Shown in pieces: positions 12,999 to 31,226 of a stretch of DNA of 45,055 nucleotides. The stretch is from NCBI GenBank assembly GCA_025358085.1, contig JANYKT010000105.1, forward strand, positions 1 to 45,055, written 5' to 3'. The notes below the pieces were generated by a model. That model did not search any database. It saw only the letters and a program-made list of their open reading frames with translations, and was not told the origin of the DNA. The first letter of the stretch is position 1. The number at the start of each line of letters is the position of its first letter. Source of the stretch: Deltaproteobacteria bacterium (GTDB taxonomy: Bacteria; Myxococcota; Myxococcia; Myxococcales; 40CM-4-68-19). The position numbers were made by a program, and so were the translations under genes.

Positions 12999-13589
12999 TC
13001 AGGCTTTCACGAAGGAGAAAAGTTCTTGCTCGGGCGGCGTGGTCGGCTCCCTGGGCTCGGGGGAAAAACATTTCCGGCAGCGCGGCTCGTAGGCGTCGAG
13101 CGCGCCGACCAGCACGCGGCCCTGGGTGGCGATGGTTCGCTGCGAGCGGCCCGCCGGCTGGCCGCAGACCACGCAGATGGCGAGCTCCTTGGTGATGTAC
13201 TCAGCTTCGGCGAGGAGCGCCGGCATGGGGTCGAAGGCCTCTCCGCGGTAGTCCTGATCGAGTCCCGCCACCACCACGCGCAGCCCGCGGTTGGCGAGGT
13301 CCCGGCACACCTGCACCGCGCCGATGCCGAGAAATTGCACCTCGTCGATGCCGACGACTTCGACATCCTGGAGCAGGCGCTGCGGGATCTCGGCCGCGCT
13401 ATCGACGACGGTCGAGTGCATGCGCTGCTGCGAGTGGCTGACGACCGCGTTGTCGTCGTACCGCGTGTCGATGCGCGGCTTGAAGACCTGCACCTTGCGC
13501 CTCGCGATCACGGCGCGCCTGAGGCGGCGGATGAGCTCTTCGGTCTTGCCGGAAAACATGGGTCCGCAGATGACCTCGATGGTTCCCAT
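12999..13589 (-). CDS. tdk: Thymidine kinase (type II)
   Basis: Tdk phosphorylates thymidine to dTMP. The 196-aa protein shows the P-loop GPMFSGKT (8-15), the DEVQF motif with catalytic Glu83, and the structural zinc site made of two cysteine pairs (CVVC at 139-142 and CRKC at 171-174). The lasso/substrate loop RRTIA-type region is present as GRSQRTIAT. Its ATG shares a base with the stop of the PKD lipoprotein gene upstream (TAATG), and its stop abuts the TTG start of upp, so tdk sits in the middle of a tightly coupled leftward operon. Confidence 0.96.
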   Translation of the reverse strand: MGTIEVICGPMFSGKTEELIRRLRRAVIARRKVQVFKPRIDTRYDDNAVVSHSQQRMHSTVVDSAAEIPQRLLQDVEVVGIDEVQFLGIGAVQVCRDLANRGLRVVVAGLDQDYRGEAFDPMPALLAEAEYITKELAICVVCGQPAGRSQRTIATQGRVLVGALDAYEPRCRKCFSPEPREPTTPPEQELFSFVKA

Positions 13590-15490
13590 TACTTGAACCG
13601 GAGCCGCAGTTCGCCAAGGGCGCCCTCGTCGCCAGCGCGCAGTTCCAGCTGGGCGTCGCGCAGGCCCGCGGCGCGGTCAGCGAGGAGGCGCGCGCCGACC
13701 GATGCCATGCCGCCCTCTTTCTCCGCGGCGCTCTGCAGCGAGTACACCAGCCCCGCGATGTCGACCCAGAGATCCTGCGCCGACGCTTTGTCGAAGCCGG
13801 GCGCCCCGGACTTCTGCAAGGTCGCGCCCAGCGTGGCTGCCGCAGCGCCCGGCAGCAGCACGAGGCCCAGCGGTCCCAGCTGCGCAGCGGTCGGCGGCGG
13901 GGGTTTCTTCCGGCTGCTCTTCACGACCGGGGCGGGCGGTGCATCTTCCGACGGCTGCGCGGCCGGGCCGCCGAACGAGAGGTAGAAGAAGCCGTCCTTG
14001 ACCGCTGCCTGCGCGGCGTCGCCCAGCCGGTAGAAGACCCCGGACGGCACCGCCACGCGATCGCTCGCGGCGCGGGTGCGGGTCGCGCGATCGAGCGCGG
14101 CCTGCATCACCGCGGCCTTGCCTGCGTCCAGCTCTGCGGCAACCAGGAAACTGGAGCGATCGAAGCTGCCCACCTGCTCGCCCATCACCGCCTCGATCAG
14201 CGAGCCGGCGTCGAGGTAGACCCCGATACCGACGTTGCCGGTGAAGGCGGGCAGCAGGTCCTTCTCGACGTCGAGGCCCATCATTTCCTGGACGCGGTCG
14301 CGCAGGCGCGAGGCGTCGGCGCCCGAGGCACGCACCAGCTCTTGCCACAGCGCAGGAGGAGAGGCGGAGAGCTTCAAGTACGCGGCCGCCCCCGCGGGCA
14401 GCCGCGCCGCGAGATCGGGCGGGGGCCGCGACGGCGCGAGGTCTTTCGCCAGCTGCTGCGGGGTCACGTTCTTGAGCTGCCCGAAGAAGCGCACGCGGAA
14501 TTCGCCGTCGTTGTCGAAGATGGAAAAGGCGGACGAGCCGAGCTCGCTGCCGAGCCGTGAGCTGCCTTCCGCAAGCCCTGCGGGCGGTGAACCGCGCGAG
14601 AAGAACGAAGCGTCGCCGTCGCCGACATGCTTCATGGCCGCGAGCCAGGCCGGGTCCTGCGCGAGACCCTGGTCGGGCGGCAGTGCCAGCGCGCTCTTGA
14701 GCGCGAGTGCAGGGTCGCTCAGGCCCGCGGTGCGCACGTAGAGGTAGCCGTAGCGCTGCACCACGGCGACCTTCTCGCCCGAGGGCAGCTGGCCGGTGAG
14801 CGCTGGCGCGCCGTCGAGCTGCGTCTCGACGAGCGCGAACGCTCCGCCGGAGAAGCGGCCTGCGACGCGGTCGTGGCTGAGCATGCGCTTGACGGCCCCC
14901 AGCGCCTTGGCGTCGTCGGAGGTGCCGATGACCATCACCAGCGCTTCCGGATCCTGCGGCACGGTGTAGAGGGCGAGGCCTTCGTCGGGGTCGAAGCCGT
15001 TGGCGTCGGCTTGCTTCGGATCCAGTGCGTCGAAGCCCAGGCCCTCGCTCAAGGTCCGCACCACCTCATCATAGAAGGACCCCAGAGCGAGACGTTCGGC
15101 GGTGCGACGGTGCTGCGAGAGCCGCCCCCATGGTCGCGGAACCACCAGCGCGCCTCGCACGTCGGCGGGCACGGCCATGGCGACGGTGCGCGCTTTGACG
15201 GTGGCATGCGCGGTGGCAGTGCGCTTTTGTCCATCCCGGTCGCGGAGGGTCTGCGTGATGGTGAACGCGCCCGCATGCGGGAAGGCGTGGACCACCTCGG
15301 CGCCGGTGGCTTGCGGAGTGCCGTCCCCGAAATCCCAGAGGACCTGGGTGCCGTCGGGGAGAGCGCGTGGCTGGCCGAATGTGGCCGGGACGCCCGACGT
15401 GGTGACGCGATCGTCGATGGCGCCGGGTGCGACGCGTTTGATGCAGGAGGAGGCGAGGCAGAGAGCGGCGCAGAGGAGGAGGCGGCGCAT
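13589..15490 (-). CDS. PKD-domain lipoprotein of unknown function
   Basis: A 633-aa lipoprotein: signal peptide with lipobox ASSC (Cys16), then a PKD domain (about 28-102, with WDFGDGTPQA and the HAFPHAGAFTITQ strand). The large remainder (about 105-633) is a mixed alpha/beta region in which stretches such as SFYDEVVRTL, AFALVETQLDGAP and VAVVQRYGYLYV appear, with a Lys/Pro-rich linker near 525. This layout resembles lipid-cleft-like DUF3352-type proteins, but I would not assign a family. It faces the divergent polyprenyl synthase gene and its stop overlaps tdk, making it the first gene of the salvage operon, which is an odd partner for cytoplasmic enzymes. Confidence 0.82.
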   Translation of the reverse strand: MRRLLLCAALCLASSCIKRVAPGAIDDRVTTSGVPATFGQPRALPDGTQVLWDFGDGTPQATGAEVVHAFPHAGAFTITQTLRDRDGQKRTATAHATVKARTVAMAVPADVRGALVVPRPWGRLSQHRRTAERLALGSFYDEVVRTLSEGLGFDALDPKQADANGFDPDEGLALYTVPQDPEALVMVIGTSDDAKALGAVKRMLSHDRVAGRFSGGAFALVETQLDGAPALTGQLPSGEKVAVVQRYGYLYVRTAGLSDPALALKSALALPPDQGLAQDPAWLAAMKHVGDGDASFFSRGSPPAGLAEGSSRLGSELGSSAFSIFDNDGEFRVRFFGQLKNVTPQQLAKDLAPSRPPPDLAARLPAGAAAYLKLSASPPALWQELVRASGADASRLRDRVQEMMGLDVEKDLLPAFTGNVGIGVYLDAGSLIEAVMGEQVGSFDRSSFLVAAELDAGKAAVMQAALDRATRTRAASDRVAVPSGVFYRLGDAAQAAVKDGFFYLSFGGPAAQPSEDAPPAPVVKSSRKKPPPPTAAQLGPLGLVLLPGAAAATLGATLQKSGAPGFDKASAQDLWVDIAGLVYSLQSAAEKEGGMASVGARLLADRAAGLRDAQLELRAGDEGALGELRLRFK

Positions 15491-15578
15491 AAGGAGCGTC
15501 GTTTACCACAGTTGAAATTGTAGGGCGGGGCGGCTCGCGCGCAGGCTCCAGAGGACTGCGACGGGGGGCCGCAGGTGA

Positions 15579-15607
15579 TTGACAGGCCGCAGCGGCGCCG
15601 TTACTGC
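15579..15607 (+). promoter_or_regulatory. Sigma-70-type promoter of the polyprenyl synthase gene
   Basis: TTGACA at 15579-15584 is a perfect -35 box, followed at 17 bases by TACTGC (15602-15607), a weak -10. Transcription would start near 15614, about 25 bases before the GTG at 15640. The weak -10 and the palindrome overlapping it suggest a controlled promoter. Confidence 0.45.
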
Positions 15608-15626
15608 TTTCAAAGAATTTTGAAAG
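15607..15626. promoter_or_regulatory. Perfect 8+8 palindrome, candidate operator
   Basis: CTTTCAAA and TTTGAAAG form a perfect inverted repeat with a 4-base centre (GAAT). It covers the end of the predicted -10 box and the start point, the classical position for a repressor. The binding protein is unknown; the GbsR/MarR-type regulator encoded two genes along is one candidate. Confidence 0.5.
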
Positions 15627-15639
15627 TTCAGAGGTGAGC

Positions 15640-16704
15640 GTGGCTGCACTTCATTCCGCAGGGCTGATCGAGCTGCTCGACGCCGCGGCCAGTCCGCTTT
15701 CGCGACCTTCGGCGGCGCAGCTCTTGCCCGGCACCTCGGTGGCGGAAGGCATTCCCCGGCTCGAGCGTCTCCTTCTTGCTGCCGCCCTGGAAGCACCCCA
15801 CGATCTGGGGCCGGCCGCCGCCCAGCTGGTCCGCGCGGGCGGCAAGCGCGTGCGGCCTCTCCTCACCCTGCTCGCCGCGCGGGCTGCGGCGCCGGGCCTC
15901 CGGGCACGAGGCCGCGTGGCGTTGGCCCTGGTGTCCGAACTCGTCCACTCGGCCACGCTGCTCCACGACGACGTGATCGACGACGGCCTCACCCGGCGCG
16001 GCCTGCCTGCTCCCCGCGTCGCCTATGGAAACGGCGTCTCGGTGCTTGCGGGCGACTGGCTGCTCACTTCGTCGCTGGACCTGGCGCTGCGCTCGCGCGT
16101 GCCGGGCGCGGTCGAGGCGCTGGTGCGCACGCTGCGCAAGCTTGTCGAGGGCGAGGCTCGACAGCTCGCGCTGCGCGGCTCGGTGGCGTTCAGCGCCGAG
16201 GACGCGTTGCGGATCGCCGAGCTGAAGACTGGCGCTCTCTTCGCCTGGTGCGGCGAGGCTGGAGCGCTCGCGGCGCGCGCGCCAGTAGCCATCCGCGAGG
16301 CGCTGCGCGACTTCGGCCTGCACTGCGGCGTGGCCTTCCAGATCGCTGATGACCTGCTCGACTTCGAGGCAGACTCCGCCACGCTGGGCAAGGCGGTGCT
16401 GGCCGATGTGACCGAGGGAAAGCCATCGCTGCCGCTCGCCATCGCGCTCAAGCGCTTGCCCCCGCTGCGCGCTGACCTTGCGGCGCTGCTCGTCCTCGAC
16501 CTCGCCACACCGGAGCTCGAGGTGCGGTCGCGAACGCGCGCCTTCGCGGTCAAGCTCTCGCGCACCGGCGCGCTGGGAGCCGCGCGGCGCGTGGCCGAGA
16601 TGGAGCGCGACACAGCGCTGCAGGCCCTGGCTCGAATACCGGGGAGCCCGACGAGGGAGCTTTTGGAGCAGGTGACGCAGTCGCTCCTGGCGCGCCAAAG
16701 GTGA
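15640..16704 (+). CDS. Polyprenyl (all-trans) diphosphate synthase
   Basis: A trans-prenyltransferase that adds isopentenyl diphosphate units to an allylic primer, probably to make the side chain of menaquinone or another long-chain prenyl diphosphate. Both aspartate-rich motifs are present, HDDVIDD (about 109-115) and DDLLDFEAD (about 237-245), along with GGKRVRP near 67. I start at GTG 15640 because AGAGGTGA, a near-perfect ribosome site, lies just upstream; an in-frame GTG at 15634 overlaps that site. Length (354 aa) fits the IspB/HepT group. Product chain length cannot be read from the sequence with confidence. A hairpin and a regulator gene follow downstream. Confidence 0.92.
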   Translation: MAALHSAGLIELLDAAASPLSRPSAAQLLPGTSVAEGIPRLERLLLAAALEAPHDLGPAAAQLVRAGGKRVRPLLTLLAARAAAPGLRARGRVALALVSELVHSATLLHDDVIDDGLTRRGLPAPRVAYGNGVSVLAGDWLLTSSLDLALRSRVPGAVEALVRTLRKLVEGEARQLALRGSVAFSAEDALRIAELKTGALFAWCGEAGALAARAPVAIREALRDFGLHCGVAFQIADDLLDFEADSATLGKAVLADVTEGKPSLPLAIALKRLPPLRADLAALLVLDLATPELEVRSRTRAFAVKLSRTGALGAARRVAEMERDTALQALARIPGSPTRELLEQVTQSLLARQR

Positions 16705-16734
16705 AGCGCCGTGGTTCGCGGGCCATGGGAACAA

Positions 16735-16763
16735 AGCCCCTCTGCCGGGAAAGCCCAGGGGCT
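16735..16763. repeat. Stem-loop between prenyl synthase and regulator genes
   Basis: AGCCCCT (16735-16741) pairs with AGGGGCT (16757-16763) over a 15-base loop. There is no T-run after it, so it is not a standard terminator; it may partly end transcription or control the regulator mRNA. Confidence 0.4.
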
Positions 16764-16782
16764 GAGAATCGGAGGATGAACG

Positions 16783-17352
16783 ATGCTGCTTGATCCCGAC
16801 AGACAGGCCCCCGTGGCGACACCCGGGCAAGAGCAAGAGCTTCTGCAGGAGGTCGCCGAGGCCATCGGCGCGCTGATGGAGTTCTGGGGCTTCAAGCGCG
16901 TGATGGGCCGGCTCTGGACGCTGCTTTACCTGCGCGACGAGGCGCTGACCGCCGCCGAGCTTTGTGAGGAGCTCGCCATCTCCACCGGCGCGGCCTCGAT
17001 GACACTGGCCGAGCTCGAGCACTGGGGTGTGGTTCGCCGCTCGCGCAGGCCCGGCGACCGGCGCGAGTATTTTGAGGCGGAGACCGACATCTGGCGCATG
17101 GTCTCGCGCGTCCTCCGCGAGCGCGAGCTGGTGCAGGTGGAGCGCGCGCTGGAGGTCTTCGAGAGAGCGCGAACGCAGCTGCGGCAGAAGGTGCCACCCG
17201 GCGAGCACGCGCGCGTCGAGATGGTCAACGAGCGCATCGGCCGGCTCGCCGACCTGGCGCGGCTGGGTCGCGGACTGATCAGCGCGATCGTGAGCCAGGG
17301 CAAGGTCGACCTTGCGCCGCTGGTCCGCTTCGCGACGGCGCGACGGCGCTGA
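16783..17352 (+). CDS. GbsR/MarR-family transcriptional regulator
   Basis: A 189-aa winged-helix DNA-binding regulator. The central part (about 35-90) has the features of the GbsR branch of MarR proteins: the MEFWGFKRVMGRLWTLLYL helix, LTAAELCEELAISTGAASMTL as helix-turn-helix, and the RRPGDRREYFEAE wing. The C-terminal half is helical and probably dimerises. A GGAGG ribosome site (16771-16775) precedes ATG 16783. It follows the prenyl synthase gene after 78 bases and a hairpin, and may regulate that gene or itself. The effector is unknown; GbsR proteins elsewhere respond to choline, but nothing here shows choline metabolism. Confidence 0.9.
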   Translation: MLLDPDRQAPVATPGQEQELLQEVAEAIGALMEFWGFKRVMGRLWTLLYLRDEALTAAELCEELAISTGAASMTLAELEHWGVVRRSRRPGDRREYFEAETDIWRMVSRVLRERELVQVERALEVFERARTQLRQKVPPGEHARVEMVNERIGRLADLARLGRGLISAIVSQGKVDLAPLVRFATARRR

Positions 17353-17367
17353 TCAAACGAACTCGCT

Positions 17368-19041
17368 TCAGAATTCGACCGAGAGCCCGAAGCGCCAGGC
17401 TCTGTCGGTGAGGATGAGCGAGCCCTGCTTGTGGAAGTTGTCGAGCCGCGTCCAGCCGTACTCCGCGAAGATTGCGGTGCGCTGGATATACGTGTCCACG
17501 TAAGCCTCGCGCGCCACGGCTGGGTCGATGGCGTCCAGGTTCAGCGCTACGCCGACCGCGGTGGTGTACCCGAGGGTCCATCCCGAACCACGCCGGCGGT
17601 CCGTTTGCGTGCGAGAAACATCGCCGGTGCCGGAGAAGGAGGCCCAGAGCGCCTCGGTCAGACCCGCCTGGGCATAGGGAATGAACGGGAGCCAACGGTA
17701 GTGGTCGGCGAGCCAGTCAAATCGATAAGTGGCAACCAGGCCGAACGGAATGACGTCCAGGAGCGCAGTGTCCTGCGACGCGTGTTGCGTAGGAAGCCCG
17801 TCGTCGATCAGCCCCTTGCCGATGTTCTGCCAGTAGCCAATGGTGCCGCCCAGCATCAGCGCGCCGAAGGGGTGCAAAAACTCCCAGTCCGCCTCGAACT
17901 GGACCCGCGTCGGCTTGCGGTTGCCGAAGATGTCCGCGTAGGGCTGCTTGCCGCCGAGCCCGATTTCCGAGTCGACCTTGGGGTCATAGCGATCGAGCTT
18001 GAGTTCCACCAGCAGCCGGCGCGGGGGCTGATCGAACGGAGCTGCATGCGCGGCGCGCCCCGCAAGCGACAGCGCGAGCGCGAAGACGACCAGGGAGGCA
18101 GCGGCGGCGCGACGGCGGCGCGCCAGCAATGCCACGACAAAAGCCAGCCCGGCGATCCACGCGACTCCTCCGCTCGAATTACACCCGTGTCCGCCCAGCG
18201 CGCCTCCGCCGTCGTTGCGATAGTGGTCATAAAAGTCCGACACCTGTTGCGGATTGCCCTGCGAGCGCGGCGAGAGTTCCGAGGTGTTGCCGTAGGTGTC
18301 GTTCGCTACCACCGCGACGTCGTAGCCTCCATCATTTTGCAGCGGCTGCTGGTCGTCGGTTTTGGAGACGTCTGCATTGGTCTGCGCAGTGACTCGAATT
18401 GAGTACTTGGCCAGGTCGATGGGGGCCCCGATGGGCACCACATGCACATCGAAGGTGAGGATCTTGTCGGCCGGGTTGCCTTGCGCCCAGCCGACGCGAA
18501 GATGCGTGTCGCCCGAGCTGATTTGCGGCGCGGTGGGCGGGGAAGGAGGGACCGTGGCGAAGTTGACTGCGATCTCGGCTGAAGTGGTGGAGACGGTCAG
18601 CCCGCTCTGCTTGTACTGGATGCAGAGGTAATAAGTGGCTGGCGAAGCGGAGGTGTGGCCGACGTCGTTGCAGTTGAACGAGCCGCCGTCTGCGACGTCG
18701 AGAAAGAGCTCGGAGGGCGGCAGCTGCACCGACGCGGTGTCGGCGGCGAAGTTGACGTTCTCGGTCCTGTCGAGGTTCCCGCCGGAGCTGCAGTTGGAAT
18801 TGTCCGAGGCTCGCAACACGCCCAGCGAGGGAGTGCCGACAGGTTGCGCGCCCCCGAGTCCCAGATTGATGGCAAACGGAATCGGGGTGTTGTTGAGGCA
18901 GTCCGTCTTCCCGATCAGCACCACCGGCGGCGTGCCCGTACCCTTGGTGCTGGTGATCGCGATGTTGCTCGTCGTCTGGGCGAACCCGGCGAGGGGGAGG
19001 AGCGTGACGGCGAACAGAGCGGCGGCGCGGGCAGACTTCAT
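17368..19041 (-). CDS. Fused MYXO-CTERM surface protein and outer-membrane beta-barrel protein
   Basis: One 557-aa frame appears to hold two exported proteins. Part one: signal peptide (about 1-22), a cysteine-containing beta-rich domain (about 25-275), then a MYXO-CTERM-like sorting signal, GHGC (Cys287), a hydrophobic helix (about 293-307) and RRRR (308-311). Directly behind comes a second signal-peptide-like stretch (about 312-333, ending AHA-AP), then a barrel-type domain (about 335-557) with alternating aromatic strands, ending in the terminal Phe usual for outer-membrane proteins. From memory, Myxococcus has adjacent families named after MXAN_2561 (MYXO-CTERM anchored) and MXAN_2562 (barrel), which these parts resemble. 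GTG or TTG codons just before RRRR could start the second part separately. I take ATG 19041, nine codons into the longest frame, for a better signal peptide. Confidence 0.8.
   Translation of the reverse strand: MKSARAAALFAVTLLPLAGFAQTTSNIAITSTKGTGTPPVVLIGKTDCLNNTPIPFAINLGLGGAQPVGTPSLGVLRASDNSNCSSGGNLDRTENVNFAADTASVQLPPSELFLDVADGGSFNCNDVGHTSASPATYYLCIQYKQSGLTVSTTSAEIAVNFATVPPSPPTAPQISSGDTHLRVGWAQGNPADKILTFDVHVVPIGAPIDLAKYSIRVTAQTNADVSKTDDQQPLQNDGGYDVAVVANDTYGNTSELSPRSQGNPQQVSDFYDHYRNDGGGALGGHGCNSSGGVAWIAGLAFVVALLARRRRAAAASLVVFALALSLAGRAAHAAPFDQPPRRLLVELKLDRYDPKVDSEIGLGGKQPYADIFGNRKPTRVQFEADWEFLHPFGALMLGGTIGYWQNIGKGLIDDGLPTQHASQDTALLDVIPFGLVATYRFDWLADHYRWLPFIPYAQAGLTEALWASFSGTGDVSRTQTDRRRGSGWTLGYTTAVGVALNLDAIDPAVAREAYVDTYIQRTAIFAEYGWTRLDNFHKQGSLILTDRAWRFGLSVEF
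18043..18192 (-). other. Internal sorting signal followed by second signal peptide
   Basis: Positions 18192-18109 encode the GHGC motif, a hydrophobic helix and four arginines, the three parts of a MYXO-CTERM signal. Positions 18108-18043 encode a second hydrophobic segment ending in AHA-AP, like a signal peptidase I site. The frame is continuous through both. Confidence 0.65.
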
Positions 19042-19095
19042 GGCGGCAAGGACGATAGCAAGACGCACGCCAGCTCGCCTGCTTTCAAGGAAGCG

Positions 19096-19121
19096 GCGCC
19101 GGGGCCGCGCGGCCCCGGCGC
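19096..19121. terminator. Perfect 11-bp GC stem-loop after asd
   Basis: GCGCCGGGGCC and GGCCCCGGCGC form an 11-bp stem with a GCGC loop; the whole 26 bases read as one palindrome. It sits 35 bases beyond the asd stop (leftward) and before the fused outer-membrane gene. It is very stable but has no clear T-run, so it may end or attenuate the upstream operon, or be an unrelated structured element. Confidence 0.45.
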
Positions 19122-19155
19122 GAGGGACATTCTGTCAGGGCCGCACGTCATTCTG

Positions 19156-20199
19156 TCAGTGCATCCCGAGGGCGGAGGCGTGTTGTTGCAGCAGCGCTTC
19201 GGCGATCTGAACCGCATTGGTCGCCGCGCCCTTGCGCAGGTTGTCCGAGACGACGAAGAGCACCAGGCTGTTGGGCTGCGAAATGTCCGTCCGGATGCGG
19301 CCGACGTGCGTGTCGTTGTCGCCCACGGCCAGCATTGGCATTGGATAGATGTGCTGCGCGAGATCGTCCACCACCTTGACGCCCGGCGCAGCCTTGAGCA
19401 GCTCGCGCGCGCGCGCAGGCGTGAGCGGGTCCTTGAAGGTCAAGTTCGCCGCCTCGGAGTGACAGTAGAAAATGGGCACGCGGACGCAGGTGGCCGCTAC
19501 CGGCAGGTCCGGGAGACCGAGGATCTTGCGGGTCTCGTTGGTCATCTTCATCTCCTCCTCGGTGTAGCCGTTGGCTGTCGCGGGGCCGATCTCCGGGAGC
19601 AGATTGAAGGCGATGCGGTGGGCAAACTTGCTGGGCGTGATCTCACCCAGCGAGAAGAGGGCGCGCGACTGCGTCTCAAGCTCGTCGATGCCCTTCTGGC
19701 CGGCGCCCGAGACGGACTGGTAGGTGGACACGATGACGCGCGTGAGCGTGGCCGCGTCGTGCAGCGGCTTGAGCACCACCACCAGCTGGATGGTCGAGCA
19801 GTTCGGGTTGGCGACGATGCGGCGCCCGCCGGGCTTCACCGCGAGCAGCAGGTCGCCCGCGTTCACCTCAGGAACGACCAGCGGGCAGTCGGCCTCCATG
19901 CGAAAGGCGCTCGAGTTGTCGATCACCACCGCGCCCGCCCGCGCTGCGTGCGGCGCGAACTCGCGCGAGACGGTGGCGCCGGGCGAGAAGAGCGCGATCT
20001 CCACTCCTGCGAACGAGTCCGGCGTCAGGCGACGCACGGTGACATCCTCGCCGCGGAACTCGATCTTCTGGCCTTCGCTGCGCTCGGAGGCGAGCGGCAC
20101 CAGCTCGCCGACAGGGAACTCCCGCTCCTCGAGCACCTTGATCATTTCGCGTCCGACCACGCCGGTCGCGCCGACGATTGCCACCTTGAGCTTGCGCAT
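19156..20199 (-). CDS. asd: Aspartate-semialdehyde dehydrogenase
   Basis: Asd reduces aspartyl phosphate to aspartate semialdehyde, the branch point to lysine/diaminopimelate, threonine and methionine. The 347-aa protein has the NADP motif GATGVVG (10-16), the active-site cysteine in NPNCSTIQ (Cys134), the QSVSGAGQKG segment and the histidine-containing VPIFYCHSEA stretch. It lies 22 bases after tsaB at the end of an envelope-related leftward gene string (uppS-cdsA-rseP-tsaB-asd), which fits a role in peptidoglycan supply. A strong palindrome follows the gene. Confidence 0.97.
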   Translation of the reverse strand: MRKLKVAIVGATGVVGREMIKVLEEREFPVGELVPLASERSEGQKIEFRGEDVTVRRLTPDSFAGVEIALFSPGATVSREFAPHAARAGAVVIDNSSAFRMEADCPLVVPEVNAGDLLLAVKPGGRRIVANPNCSTIQLVVVLKPLHDAATLTRVIVSTYQSVSGAGQKGIDELETQSRALFSLGEITPSKFAHRIAFNLLPEIGPATANGYTEEEMKMTNETRKILGLPDLPVAATCVRVPIFYCHSEAANLTFKDPLTPARARELLKAAPGVKVVDDLAQHIYPMPMLAVGDNDTHVGRIRTDISQPNSLVLFVVSDNLRKGAATNAVQIAEALLQQHASALGMH

Positions 20200-20221
20200 A
20201 ACGCGGGACTCACCACGCCTT

Positions 20222-20923
20222 TCAGGCCCGCGTCAAGCCTCCAACACGGCCTTCGGCGAGCGCGACCTCGGCCAGGCTTTGCTGCAAATAGTTGGGAGCC
20301 AAGGCAAAGAGCGCGTCCGGGCTGTAGCGGGCGTCGCGCAGAGCAGGCAGGCAGAGCCGTCCGATCTGGCTCGCGGGCGGAGCGCGGAATGCATCGGAGA
20401 GGGTCAGGCCTTCAAACGCCGCGCGGTTCGCGAGCGCGCCCGGGCCTGCGAGGACCAGACCGTCCGGGTGGCCCAGGGCGCGCAGCTTTTCCGCCAGCAC
20501 CTCAGCGCGGTAGACCGCCTCGGGCCAGACCAGGTCCAGGCCGCGGTGGAGCGAAGCGTACACCTCGCCCCGGCGCGCCTCGATGGTGACGCAAACAAGC
20601 CGGGCGAATTGCGTGTCTGTCCCCAGCGCGCCTCGCGCTGCGGCCTCGGCGAGCGCGAGCGCGAGCAGCGACGACGCTCCGGCGATGGGCCAGCGCCGCG
20701 CGTACGCCAACGCCTTCGCCGCCGCGAGCGCGACGCGCAGGCCGGTGAACGAACCAGGCCCGAGCCCCACTGCAATACCCTGGACGCCGTCGAGCGGACC
20801 CAACACGCAGGGCAGCAGGTCGCCCGCCCTGGCGTCGTGCGTGGACTCGGAGAGGACGTGCCCGTCCTCCACGAGCGCTACGGACAGCACCGGCGAGGAG
20901 GCGTCAAGCGCGAGCAGCCGCAA
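20222..20923 (-). CDS. tsaB: tRNA threonylcarbamoyladenosine biosynthesis protein TsaB
   Basis: TsaB is the partner of TsaD in making t6A at position 37 of ANN-decoding tRNAs. The 233-aa length, the N-terminus LLALDASSPVLSVAL and the GLGPGSFTGLRVALAAAKAL motif are diagnostic. Its start is TTG 20923, placed directly after the rseP stop (TAGTTG), and no ATG or GTG gives the conserved first strand. The gene is therefore likely to be translated by ribosomes finishing rseP. As in other bacteria, it needs TsaD and TsaE, which are not in this window. Confidence 0.95.
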   Translation of the reverse strand: MRLLALDASSPVLSVALVEDGHVLSESTHDARAGDLLPCVLGPLDGVQGIAVGLGPGSFTGLRVALAAAKALAYARRWPIAGASSLLALALAEAAARGALGTDTQFARLVCVTIEARRGEVYASLHRGLDLVWPEAVYRAEVLAEKLRALGHPDGLVLAGPGALANRAAFEGLTLSDAFRAPPASQIGRLCLPALRDARYSPDALFALAPNYLQQSLAEVALAEGRVGGLTRA

Positions 20924-22582
20924 CTATCCGAACGCCATGCGGACGATGTCGTTCTTGAAAGCGAAGATCATCAGCGTCAGCAAGAGCGCGATGCCGACAA
21001 CATTGGCGACCTCGCGGAACCGCAGCGAGAGCGGCTTGCGGCGCACCGCCTCGATGCCGGCCGAGAGCACGTGGAAGCCATCGAGGACCGGCAGCGGAAT
21101 GAGGTTCATCACGCCCAACACCACGCTGATGGCGCCCATCATGTAGACGAATGCGCGCCAGCCTTCGTCGGCGGCGCGGCGGGCGACGTCGGCGATCATG
21201 ATCGGCCCGCCGATGGCCTCGCTGGAGATGTGCCCGGTGACGATGCGGGCGAGACCCAGCGCCTGCCCCCGGACCGCGCCAGACAGATCCATCACGCTGC
21301 GCCGCACGGCCTCGGGCACGCTCCAGCGAACCAGAACTCGCTCGGGCTCGACCGAGTAGACGGCGCTGTCGGGTGCTGCGCCGAGGTCGGGCGTGTCCAC
21401 GCGGACGCCTGCCTCATCGCGCGCCTTCTTCAGATGCTGGTTCACGGTGACCGCGACCTCCTTGCCCTCGCGGCGCACGGTAAAGGCGAGCGGCCGCGCC
21501 AGCGCTGCGTGACGGGCGGTCTCCACCTCGTCGTACCAGGTCAGGGCGGGCTTGCCGGCCACGCTGAGGACCCGGTCCCCGCGCTGCAGGCCGGCTTCCG
21601 CTGCCGCCGAGCCGGGCTGGACGGCGAAGAGAGTCAGATCGCTCGCCTCGATGCCGTAGGCCCCGGCGCTCGCGGGCGCCGGAATTTCCAGCGAGACGGG
21701 CTGCTCCGACCAGAGCGTGGCACCGGGCGCGTCGACCGGCTGGCGCCGCAGCACCTCCAGCTTGAGGGGCGCGGTGGCGGTCTCGAGCTTCCGCGCCAGG
21801 GCCTCATAGTTGGCGACCCGCTGGCCATCGAGCCGGGTAATCAGATCGAAGGTCCGCAGCCCGCCGCGCGAGGCAGGCGTTTCGGGTCCCGTGACCGTGA
21901 CCTCGGCCGCGCGGGCAGCCGCCGAGATGCCGATGCGGCCATGCTTCACGGTCTCGAGCGGATTGGTCTCCTCGTGCACCGCCGGGATGATGGTCACGTC
22001 CTGTTCGCGCCCGTCGCGTGAGACGTGCAGTTGGAGCGGCTGCCCCGGATGGTCCACTGAAGAACGGATCTTCTCCTGCAACGTGGTCCAGCCGGTGACC
22101 GGTTCACCATCGACCGTGAGGATGCGGTCACCCGCCCGCAGCCCACCCACCGCGGCTGGCGACTGCGGCTTGACAGTGCCCACCGTGGCCGCGAGGTCGT
22201 GGTGCGGCGCGGCGTTGATGATGAAGAAGAGCCCCAGCGCGGCGATGAAATTTGCCGCCGGGCCAGCGAAGGCGATGGCGGCCTTCTTCGCGGGGGGCTG
22301 CTCGAGGAACCCGCGACCGCGGTCCTCCGGCGGCAGCTCTTCCAAGGGATTGTCGCCGGCAAACTTCACGTAGCCGCCCAGCGGCAAGAGCGAGAAACGG
22401 TACTCGGTTTCGCCAACAGTGAAACCGAATAATTTAGGCCCGAACCCCAGGGAGAACCGCAGCGCCTTGACGCCCAGCAGCTTGCCCACGATGAGGTGAC
22501 CCATCTCGTGGAAGAAGACGATGGTGCTGATGAGGAGGGCAAAGGAAGCGAGCGTCTGCACGACCGATAGGACGGAGCTCAT
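20924..22582 (-). CDS. rseP: Site-2 zinc metalloprotease RseP with three apparent PDZ domains
   Basis: An inner-membrane protease of the RseP/SpoIVFB class that cuts transmembrane segments, usually of anti-sigma factors, after a first cut outside. HEMGH (25-29) in the first helix is the zinc site; the FAGPAANF helix (about 105-120) and NLIPLPVLDG (about 493-502) near the C-terminus complete the active site. Between them I see three PDZ-like repeats (about 131-200, 218-298 and 312-392), each with a GL...GD/FDxI core. Typical family members have one or two and about 450 aa; this one has 552. The motif LDGFH replaces the usual LDGGH. It follows cdsA after 46 bases and abuts tsaB. Confidence 0.95.
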   Translation of the reverse strand: MSSVLSVVQTLASFALLISTIVFFHEMGHLIVGKLLGVKALRFSLGFGPKLFGFTVGETEYRFSLLPLGGYVKFAGDNPLEELPPEDRGRGFLEQPPAKKAAIAFAGPAANFIAALGLFFIINAAPHHDLAATVGTVKPQSPAAVGGLRAGDRILTVDGEPVTGWTTLQEKIRSSVDHPGQPLQLHVSRDGREQDVTIIPAVHEETNPLETVKHGRIGISAAARAAEVTVTGPETPASRGGLRTFDLITRLDGQRVANYEALARKLETATAPLKLEVLRRQPVDAPGATLWSEQPVSLEIPAPASAGAYGIEASDLTLFAVQPGSAAAEAGLQRGDRVLSVAGKPALTWYDEVETARHAALARPLAFTVRREGKEVAVTVNQHLKKARDEAGVRVDTPDLGAAPDSAVYSVEPERVLVRWSVPEAVRRSVMDLSGAVRGQALGLARIVTGHISSEAIGGPIMIADVARRAADEGWRAFVYMMGAISVVLGVMNLIPLPVLDGFHVLSAGIEAVRRKPLSLRFREVANVVGIALLLTLMIFAFKNDIVRMAFG

Positions 22583-28380: not shown

Positions 28381-28917
28381 ATGTCGAAGGCGCCCCCCAG
28401 CAAGAAGCAGACTCTGCTGCACTTCCTCGCCCGCGGCGTCGCGATGCTGCATGTCGATACGCGCCGGCCTGGCGTGTTGGTGCCGAAGCAGTTCGAGGGC
28501 GAAGCGCATCTGCGGCTCAACTTGAGCTACCGCTATTCGATCCCGGACTTGATCGTGGACGAGAAGCGCGTCCAGGCGACGCTGTCGTTCGGGGGCCGAT
28601 CGTTCCAGTGCCAGATGCCGTGGGAGGCCGTGTTCGGCATCACCAGCAGCGCCAGCGGCGACGGGCAAGTGTGGCCCGAGGATCTGCCCACTGAAGCGAT
28701 GCAGACGCTTGCCGAGCGCGAGCCCCCTGCGACGGGCAGTCCGCAGACCGCACCTGACGGCACCCCTCCCCGCGGCGCCCGGCCAGCGCTGGTGCCGGTC
28801 GATGGCGGGGTTGAGCGCGTCCAGGCCAAGGCCTCCGGCGAGGACCGCTCGCATTCGACGGAGGGCGAACCGCTCGAACCGGCACCCCCCCCCCGCCATC
28901 TGCGCCTCGTGCGCTGA
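28381..28917 (+). CDS. sspB: SspB-like ClpXP adaptor protein
   Basis: A 178-aa protein resembling stringent starvation protein B, which tethers ssrA-tagged and other substrates to the ClpXP protease. The N-terminal fold matches: KKQTLLHFLARGVAMLHVDTR in part, then GVLVPKQFEGEAHLRLNLSY and LIVDEKRVQATLSFGG, and MPWEAVFGI. A long flexible Pro/Ala-rich stretch leads to a final LRLVR, equivalent to the ClpX-binding XB tail (LRVIK-type) of known SspB. A run of ten C at 28885-28894 encodes three prolines just before this tail. I prefer ATG 28381; an upstream in-frame ATG 28357 would add eight residues. It follows the MsbA-like gene after 75 bases. Confidence 0.87.
   Translation: MSKAPPSKKQTLLHFLARGVAMLHVDTRRPGVLVPKQFEGEAHLRLNLSYRYSIPDLIVDEKRVQATLSFGGRSFQCQMPWEAVFGITSSASGDGQVWPEDLPTEAMQTLAEREPPATGSPQTAPDGTPPRGARPALVPVDGGVERVQAKASGEDRSHSTEGEPLEPAPPPRHLRLVR
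28885..28894 (+). repeat. C10 homopolymer inside sspB
   Basis: Ten consecutive C residues encode Pro-Pro-Pro plus the first base of Arg, seven codons before the stop. A one-base length change would replace the LRLVR tail with an unrelated extension. It could be a slippage site or a source of sequencing error. Confidence 0.9.
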
Positions 28918-30839: not shown

Positions 30840-31226
30840 GTGCGCATTCTCCACACCATGTTGCGCGTCGGCGACCTCGAGAAGTCGCTCGCTTTCTATA
30901 CCGATGTGCTCGGGATGAAGTTGCTGCGCCGGCGCGAATATCCCGAGGGCCGGTTCACGCTGGCCTTCGTCGGCTTCGGCCCCGAGTCGGAGCAGGCGGC
31001 GCTCGAGCTGACGCACAATTGGGATACGCCCCATTACGAGTTGGGCAACGCTTATGGGCATATCGCGCTCGAGGTCCCCGACGCGGGCGCTGCCTGCGCC
31101 GAGATCAAGCGCCGCGGCGGTGTGGTCTCGCGCGAGGCGGGACCGATGAAGCACGGCACCACTGTCATTGCGTTCGTGCAGGACCCGGACGGCTACAAGA
31201 TTGAATTGATTGAGCGCCGTACCTGA
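30840..31226 (+). CDS. gloA: Glyoxalase I (lactoylglutathione lyase)
   Basis: GloA isomerises the methylglyoxal-glutathione adduct to S-lactoylglutathione. The 128-aa size and sequence follow the bacterial Ni-type enzyme closely: metal ligands His5, Glu56, His74 and Glu122 are all at the standard positions ([28 protein letters not shown]). The start is GTG 30840, three bases after the stop of the small upstream gene. It converges on a leftward nucleotidyltransferase gene 22 bases away. A role in protecting against by-products of the nearby sugar pathway is plausible but inferred. Confidence 0.95.

Follow-up and report, generated by a model that had tools for sequence, protein, structure and literature searches.

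Polyproteins are uncommon in bacteria, and sorting tags are usually treated as C-terminal elements. One bacterial precursor with an internal signal that is cut by signal peptidase is the cytochrome b/c1 protein encoded by Bradyrhizobium fbcH. For proteins carrying the MYXO-CTERM tag, the published model comprises Sec export, lipidation of the tag cysteine (proposed), cleavage by MrtX (shown) and type II secretion to the surface (PMC11980579). In M. xanthus, MYXO-CTERM is cleaved by MrtX, and processing has been proposed for an internal tag as well (PMC11980579). In MXAN_5598, a MYXO-CTERM tag lies internally, between an adhesin and a barrel with OmpA, an arrangement for which a gene fusion with processing of the N-terminal part has been proposed (PMC11980579). 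Another arrangement relevant to the locus described here is that of traA and traB, which overlap by four bases (PMC3325183).

The stretch of DNA analyzed here, hereafter the window, is 45,055 nucleotides long and represents one entire contig of a 5.4-Mb draft genome (G000) belonging to family f1. At 17368–19041 on the minus strand it contains a single ATG-started open frame of 557 aa in which a surface protein is fused to a barrel. In the translation of the window, no stop interrupts this frame from the ATG to the end, which verifies the original prediction, made without naming a strand, of one frame running through a sorting motif, a second signal and a barrel. The protein begins with an N-terminal signal peptide (aa 1–21, 18979–19041; this and all following gene parts are on the minus strand), whose cut between GFA and QT was placed by eye and not computed. 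The ectodomain (aa 22–285, 18187–18978) ends in DFYDHYRNDGGGALGGH and appears fibronectin-III-like, as judged by eye only. It lies within a match to NF045522, the NCBIfam equivalog profile of the MXAN_2561 family, which covers aa 8–311 and profile positions 5–304 of 304 and scores 92 bits, under the cut-off of 150 bits. Judged by this match, the ectodomain is a relative of the MXAN_2561 family and not a strict equivalog. The MYXO-CTERM tag (aa 286–311, 18109–18186) consists of a glycine followed by Cys287, a hydrophobic helix and RRRR, and is conserved in relatives. It matches TIGR03382 with 16.2 bits in the protein against a cut-off of 15.85, and with 22 bits in the genome scan. The tag is not C-terminal, since 246 further residues follow in the same frame. 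The second signal-peptide-like segment (aa 308–333, 18043–18120), recognized from its sequence and the conservation of its pattern, has a predicted cut between AHA and AP after aa 333. The outer-membrane β-barrel of the MXAN_2562 family (aa 334–557, 17371–18042) is assigned by NCBIfam NF040596, which matches aa 344–557 with 171 bits against a cut-off of 100; a structural model of modest quality and Foldseek suggest a barrel of about eight strands. Both profiles thus match the families to which the two halves had been assigned beforehand, the first of them below its cut-off. The fused protein was without a match in Pfam, among PDB sequences or on plasmids.

The draft genome consists of 217 contigs, and an error of sequencing or assembly might have joined two genes. 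We consider this extremely unlikely, since the frame is uninterrupted in independent assemblies of about 11 families. In nine other f1 genomes (G002–G010) the same frame runs through without a break at 43–53% identity, and in G001 each of the two parts lies at a contig end, one of which keeps the junction intact; no match to the fused gene was found in the f1 genome G011, which is 61% complete. The gene is also fused, in one frame, in f5 and f8. A search of 195 genomes of the phylum revealed barrel matches within long open frames in many further families, and individual reading of 20 of these loci identified fusions with MYXO-CTERM-like tags in f10 and f14. The fusion that the original prediction proposed to look for in relatives is therefore present in f1, f5, f8, f10, f14 and others, and stop loss, a missed stop or a frameshift is excluded as a general cause by the independent relatives that carry the uninterrupted frame. 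Relatives throughout the phylum also encode the two parts in one frame and retain the two cutting sites expected; the fused gene therefore encodes, with high probability, a true bacterial polyprotein and is not a product of faulty sequencing.

The junction of the window's protein reads GGHGC-NSSGGVAWIAGLAFVVALLA-RRRR-AAAASLVVFALALSLAGRAAHA, followed across the predicted cut by APF, and RRRR both forms the tail of the MYXO-CTERM tag and provides the n-region for the second signal. A pattern describing this junction (Gly-Cys, hydrophobic, basic cluster, hydrophobic, A-x-A) matches once when all six frames of the window are scanned and never in 200 codon-shuffled windows. Since the pattern was devised after seeing the sequence, its independent conservation is the stronger test. 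All 13 fused sequences of f1, f5 and f8, including that of the window, keep the tag cysteine, the hydrophobic segment, the basic cluster, the second hydrophobic segment and a small-x-Ala site. In this set, 38–58 residues separate the tag cysteine from the predicted second cut, and the basic cluster has four to five basic residues in six. Such uniform retention of both signals at this level of protein divergence suggests that both are used. Moreover, an uncut barrel would stay tethered to the inner membrane, so that retention of the second site points to cutting. The retained cysteine tag and the retained second signal fit two-site processing.

The gene is real and conserved and, as far as its sequence can tell, is best explained as encoding a processed polyprotein: a single precursor from which a sorting protease and signal peptidase I would release a surface protein and the barrel that partners it; we assign this reading a probability of roughly 0.68. 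The first signal peptide of this precursor would direct the ectodomain through the inner membrane via Sec, until the MYXO-CTERM helix halts transfer, with RRRR left as a cytoplasmic loop. Transfer would resume at the second hydrophobic segment, which would serve as an internal signal and bring the barrel into the periplasm. A myxosortase-type sorting protease would cut at Cys287, which is probably lipidated, and release the surface protein, whereas signal peptidase I would cut between AHA and AP and free the barrel for outer-membrane insertion, with a short membrane hairpin remaining. The two products would be partners made together, comparable to TraA and TraB. We infer the topology, both cuts, the lipidation and the partnership of the products. 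Because the internal tag is conserved and a new export signal follows it, the action of a sorting protease in the middle of a chain can be tested directly.

Signal peptidase I is encoded in G000. MrtX-like proteins are present in f5, f8 and seven other f1 genomes (G001–G007). No MrtX was detected in G000, a draft with an estimated completeness of 98%, nor in G008, G009 and G010, the first two of which are less than 90% complete; the nearest candidates in G000 are generic CPBP proteins. The gene that neighbors mrtX in relatives was located on G000 contig C167, where unrelated sequence follows and the contig ends soon after. The MrtX of G000 may have diverged, be truly absent, or lie in a gap of the assembly. 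The genome has five MYXO-CTERM matches over the cut-off, yet no MrtX was found in it. The missing MrtX of G000 would speak for a permanent fusion, in which the protein would stay uncut, or be cut at one site only, and work as a single chain. We regard this as improbable, given that both signals are retained in every fused homologue of f1, f5 and f8, and that split relatives make two proteins from the same locus. In addition, the pair of inner-membrane helices would hold the barrel away from the outer membrane; as a principle of barrel assembly, anchoring in the inner membrane prevents placement in the outer membrane.

The processed precursor also has to be weighed against translation of the barrel, additionally or exclusively, from an in-frame GTG, TTG or ATG inside the MYXO-CTERM helix, in which case the frame would hide overlapping genes. 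In the window, a GTG at Cys+16 and a TTG at Cys+18, both in the first helix, could initiate a barrel whose complete signal peptide has RRRR as its n-region; similar codons occur in G002, G003 and G008, and the split relatives described below re-initiate at ATGA or GTGA. Start-like codons are, on the other hand, expected in helices rich in valine and leucine, and the position of the start codon is not conserved among the fused sequences. G010 and G004 have no ATG, GTG or TTG between the tag cysteine and the mature barrel, and in G007, G009 and G005 starts are found only inside or after the second hydrophobic segment, so that the basic n-region would be lost. Thus, in five of the 13 fused f1, f5 and f8 sequences, no start codon is placed so that the barrel would keep a full signal peptide, and no usable internal start exists in G150 and G149 either. 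The internal start raised in the original prediction is therefore disfavored as the main route and, as an explanation of the locus, unlikely. Some internal initiation may occur in the window's own gene, to judge from its codons.

The co-production of surface protein and barrel had led to the suggestion that the barrel exports its partner, in an autotransporter-like or two-partner-like manner. The structural comparison does not favor this. A barrel-only model (m05a0cb0f5126) has eight strands at a pLDDT of 63; the full-length AlphaFold model is poor (pLDDT 45). In Foldseek, the nearest structures to the barrel model are OmpA, Ail, NspA and OmpX, with E values down to 2e-6 (OmpA) and TM-scores of only about 0.33–0.57. 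We know of no small barrel of the OmpA, Ail or NspA kind that exports proteins. The literature model for MYXO-CTERM proteins, moreover, uses type II secretion (PMC11980579). Export of the surface protein through its own barrel is accordingly very doubtful, and the small size of the barrel, as predicted by a model of modest quality, fits a partner or an anchor better than an exporter.

The phylum search further uncovered a variant of the fusion in six families (f11, f12, f15, f17, f18 and f19; the loci are among L085–L097 and L100), in which the same N-terminal domain and barrel are joined through CFI-box-CTERM as the internal tag. In the three sequences scanned, from f18, f11 and f17, CFI_box_CTERM (NF041770) scores 71–90 bits against a cut-off of 40 and is flanked by the MXAN_2561 and MXAN_2562 matches; the remaining members were assigned by eye from the same recognizable stretch. 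Sequences of this type have a basic stretch, a hydrophobic segment and an A-x-A-like site ahead of the barrel. That one position can hold either MYXO-CTERM or CFI-box-CTERM points to a sorting or anchoring role for CFI-box as well.

The locus is marked by asd (aspartate-semialdehyde dehydrogenase; 19156–20199, minus strand, in the window), which adjoins the gene in f1, f4, f5, f6, f10, f11, f15, f18, f19 and f29, and was not seen in f8, f12 and f14 within the stretch examined around the locus. Its presence next to the gene in most families indicates one orthologous locus. The window's neighborhood (13589–22582) comprises rseP, tsaB, asd, the fused gene, a GbsR/MarR-like regulator, a polyprenyl synthase and a large unnamed protein, and is kept in f1 relatives; the unnamed protein (13589–15490) has no match in NCBIfam. 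In several families the two halves are adjacent separate genes, as the original prediction had it for Myxococcus. In f2, f3, f4 and f6, the barrel start and the surface-protein stop share four bases (ATGA or GTGA) in most loci that could be read automatically; the junctions of L017, L026, L027, L040, L041 and L043 were unresolved by automatic reading, and L042 and L044 differ. The f9 genome G028 has the same four-base overlap. In another f9 genome, G024, the TAG of the surface protein is immediately followed, in the same frame, by the GTG of the barrel (L046, near base 2096), and this junction is one substitution away from fusion. The four-base overlap, as reported for traA and traB, suggests joint production of the two proteins also where their genes are separate. 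The original prediction would have taken relatives in which an intact stop divides the pair into two distinct genes as evidence against the fusion; such relatives do exist in some families, and the fusion nevertheless stands because many others are fused.

In the order-level tree of barrels, f1, f5 and f8 form one fused clade (94/90) beside f6. A single fusion limited to these three families was considered and rejected when the phylum-wide search showed fusion in many more. In a tree of 54 sequences with the phylum added, in which deep branches are weak, the fused and split states require at least five changes. Either the fusion is ancestral with later splits, or it has arisen repeatedly. At this one locus, the pair is found split, overlapping or fused, a natural progression that leads from translational coupling to gene fusion and points to a close partnership of an unstudied surface protein with its barrel. 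The wider reading is that this is an ancient, phylum-wide polyprotein locus next to asd, from which two different proteases, a sorting protease and signal peptidase I, would release a surface protein and a barrel partner, with the tag swapped between MYXO-CTERM and CFI-box-CTERM and with some lineages holding the pair as overlapping genes; for this whole picture we see the odds as roughly even.

Among known systems, the fbcH precursor is without a sorting tag, and its proteins are unrelated to those of the window's gene. The MXAN_2561 and MXAN_2562 families provide both halves and, in f4 and f6, occupy the same asd-linked locus as separate adjacent genes; they are two genes, mostly with a four-base overlap, whereas the window has one frame without a stop or a conserved internal start. 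CFI-box-CTERM domain proteins (NF041770) of the six families named above share the N-terminal domain, second signal and barrel with the window's gene, and differ from it in having CFI-box-CTERM, not MYXO-CTERM, as the internal tag. TraA and TraB are likened to the locus by arrangement, as a MYXO-CTERM surface protein and an outer-membrane partner with a four-base gene overlap, but they are two separate genes. A second internal MYXO-CTERM is present in G000 itself, on contig C137 (L050, contig positions 28500–33000; tag at 30840–30926, minus strand). The order there is Ig-like repeats, tag, second signal-like segment, barrel-like region and OmpA domain, which resembles MXAN_5598; the OmpA domain matches TraB among many OmpA families, and an in-frame ATG about 41 residues after the tag cysteine could start the barrel separately. 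An internal MYXO-CTERM fusion has been noted before, in MXAN_5598, whereas the phylum-wide conservation and the tag swap appear to be undescribed in the literature searched. MXAN_5598 shares with the window's gene an internal MYXO-CTERM followed by a barrel; its adhesin and barrel are different, it includes OmpA, and it was reported as one atypical case (PMC11980579). Unlike MXAN_5598, the fusion of the window spans many families and two tag types.
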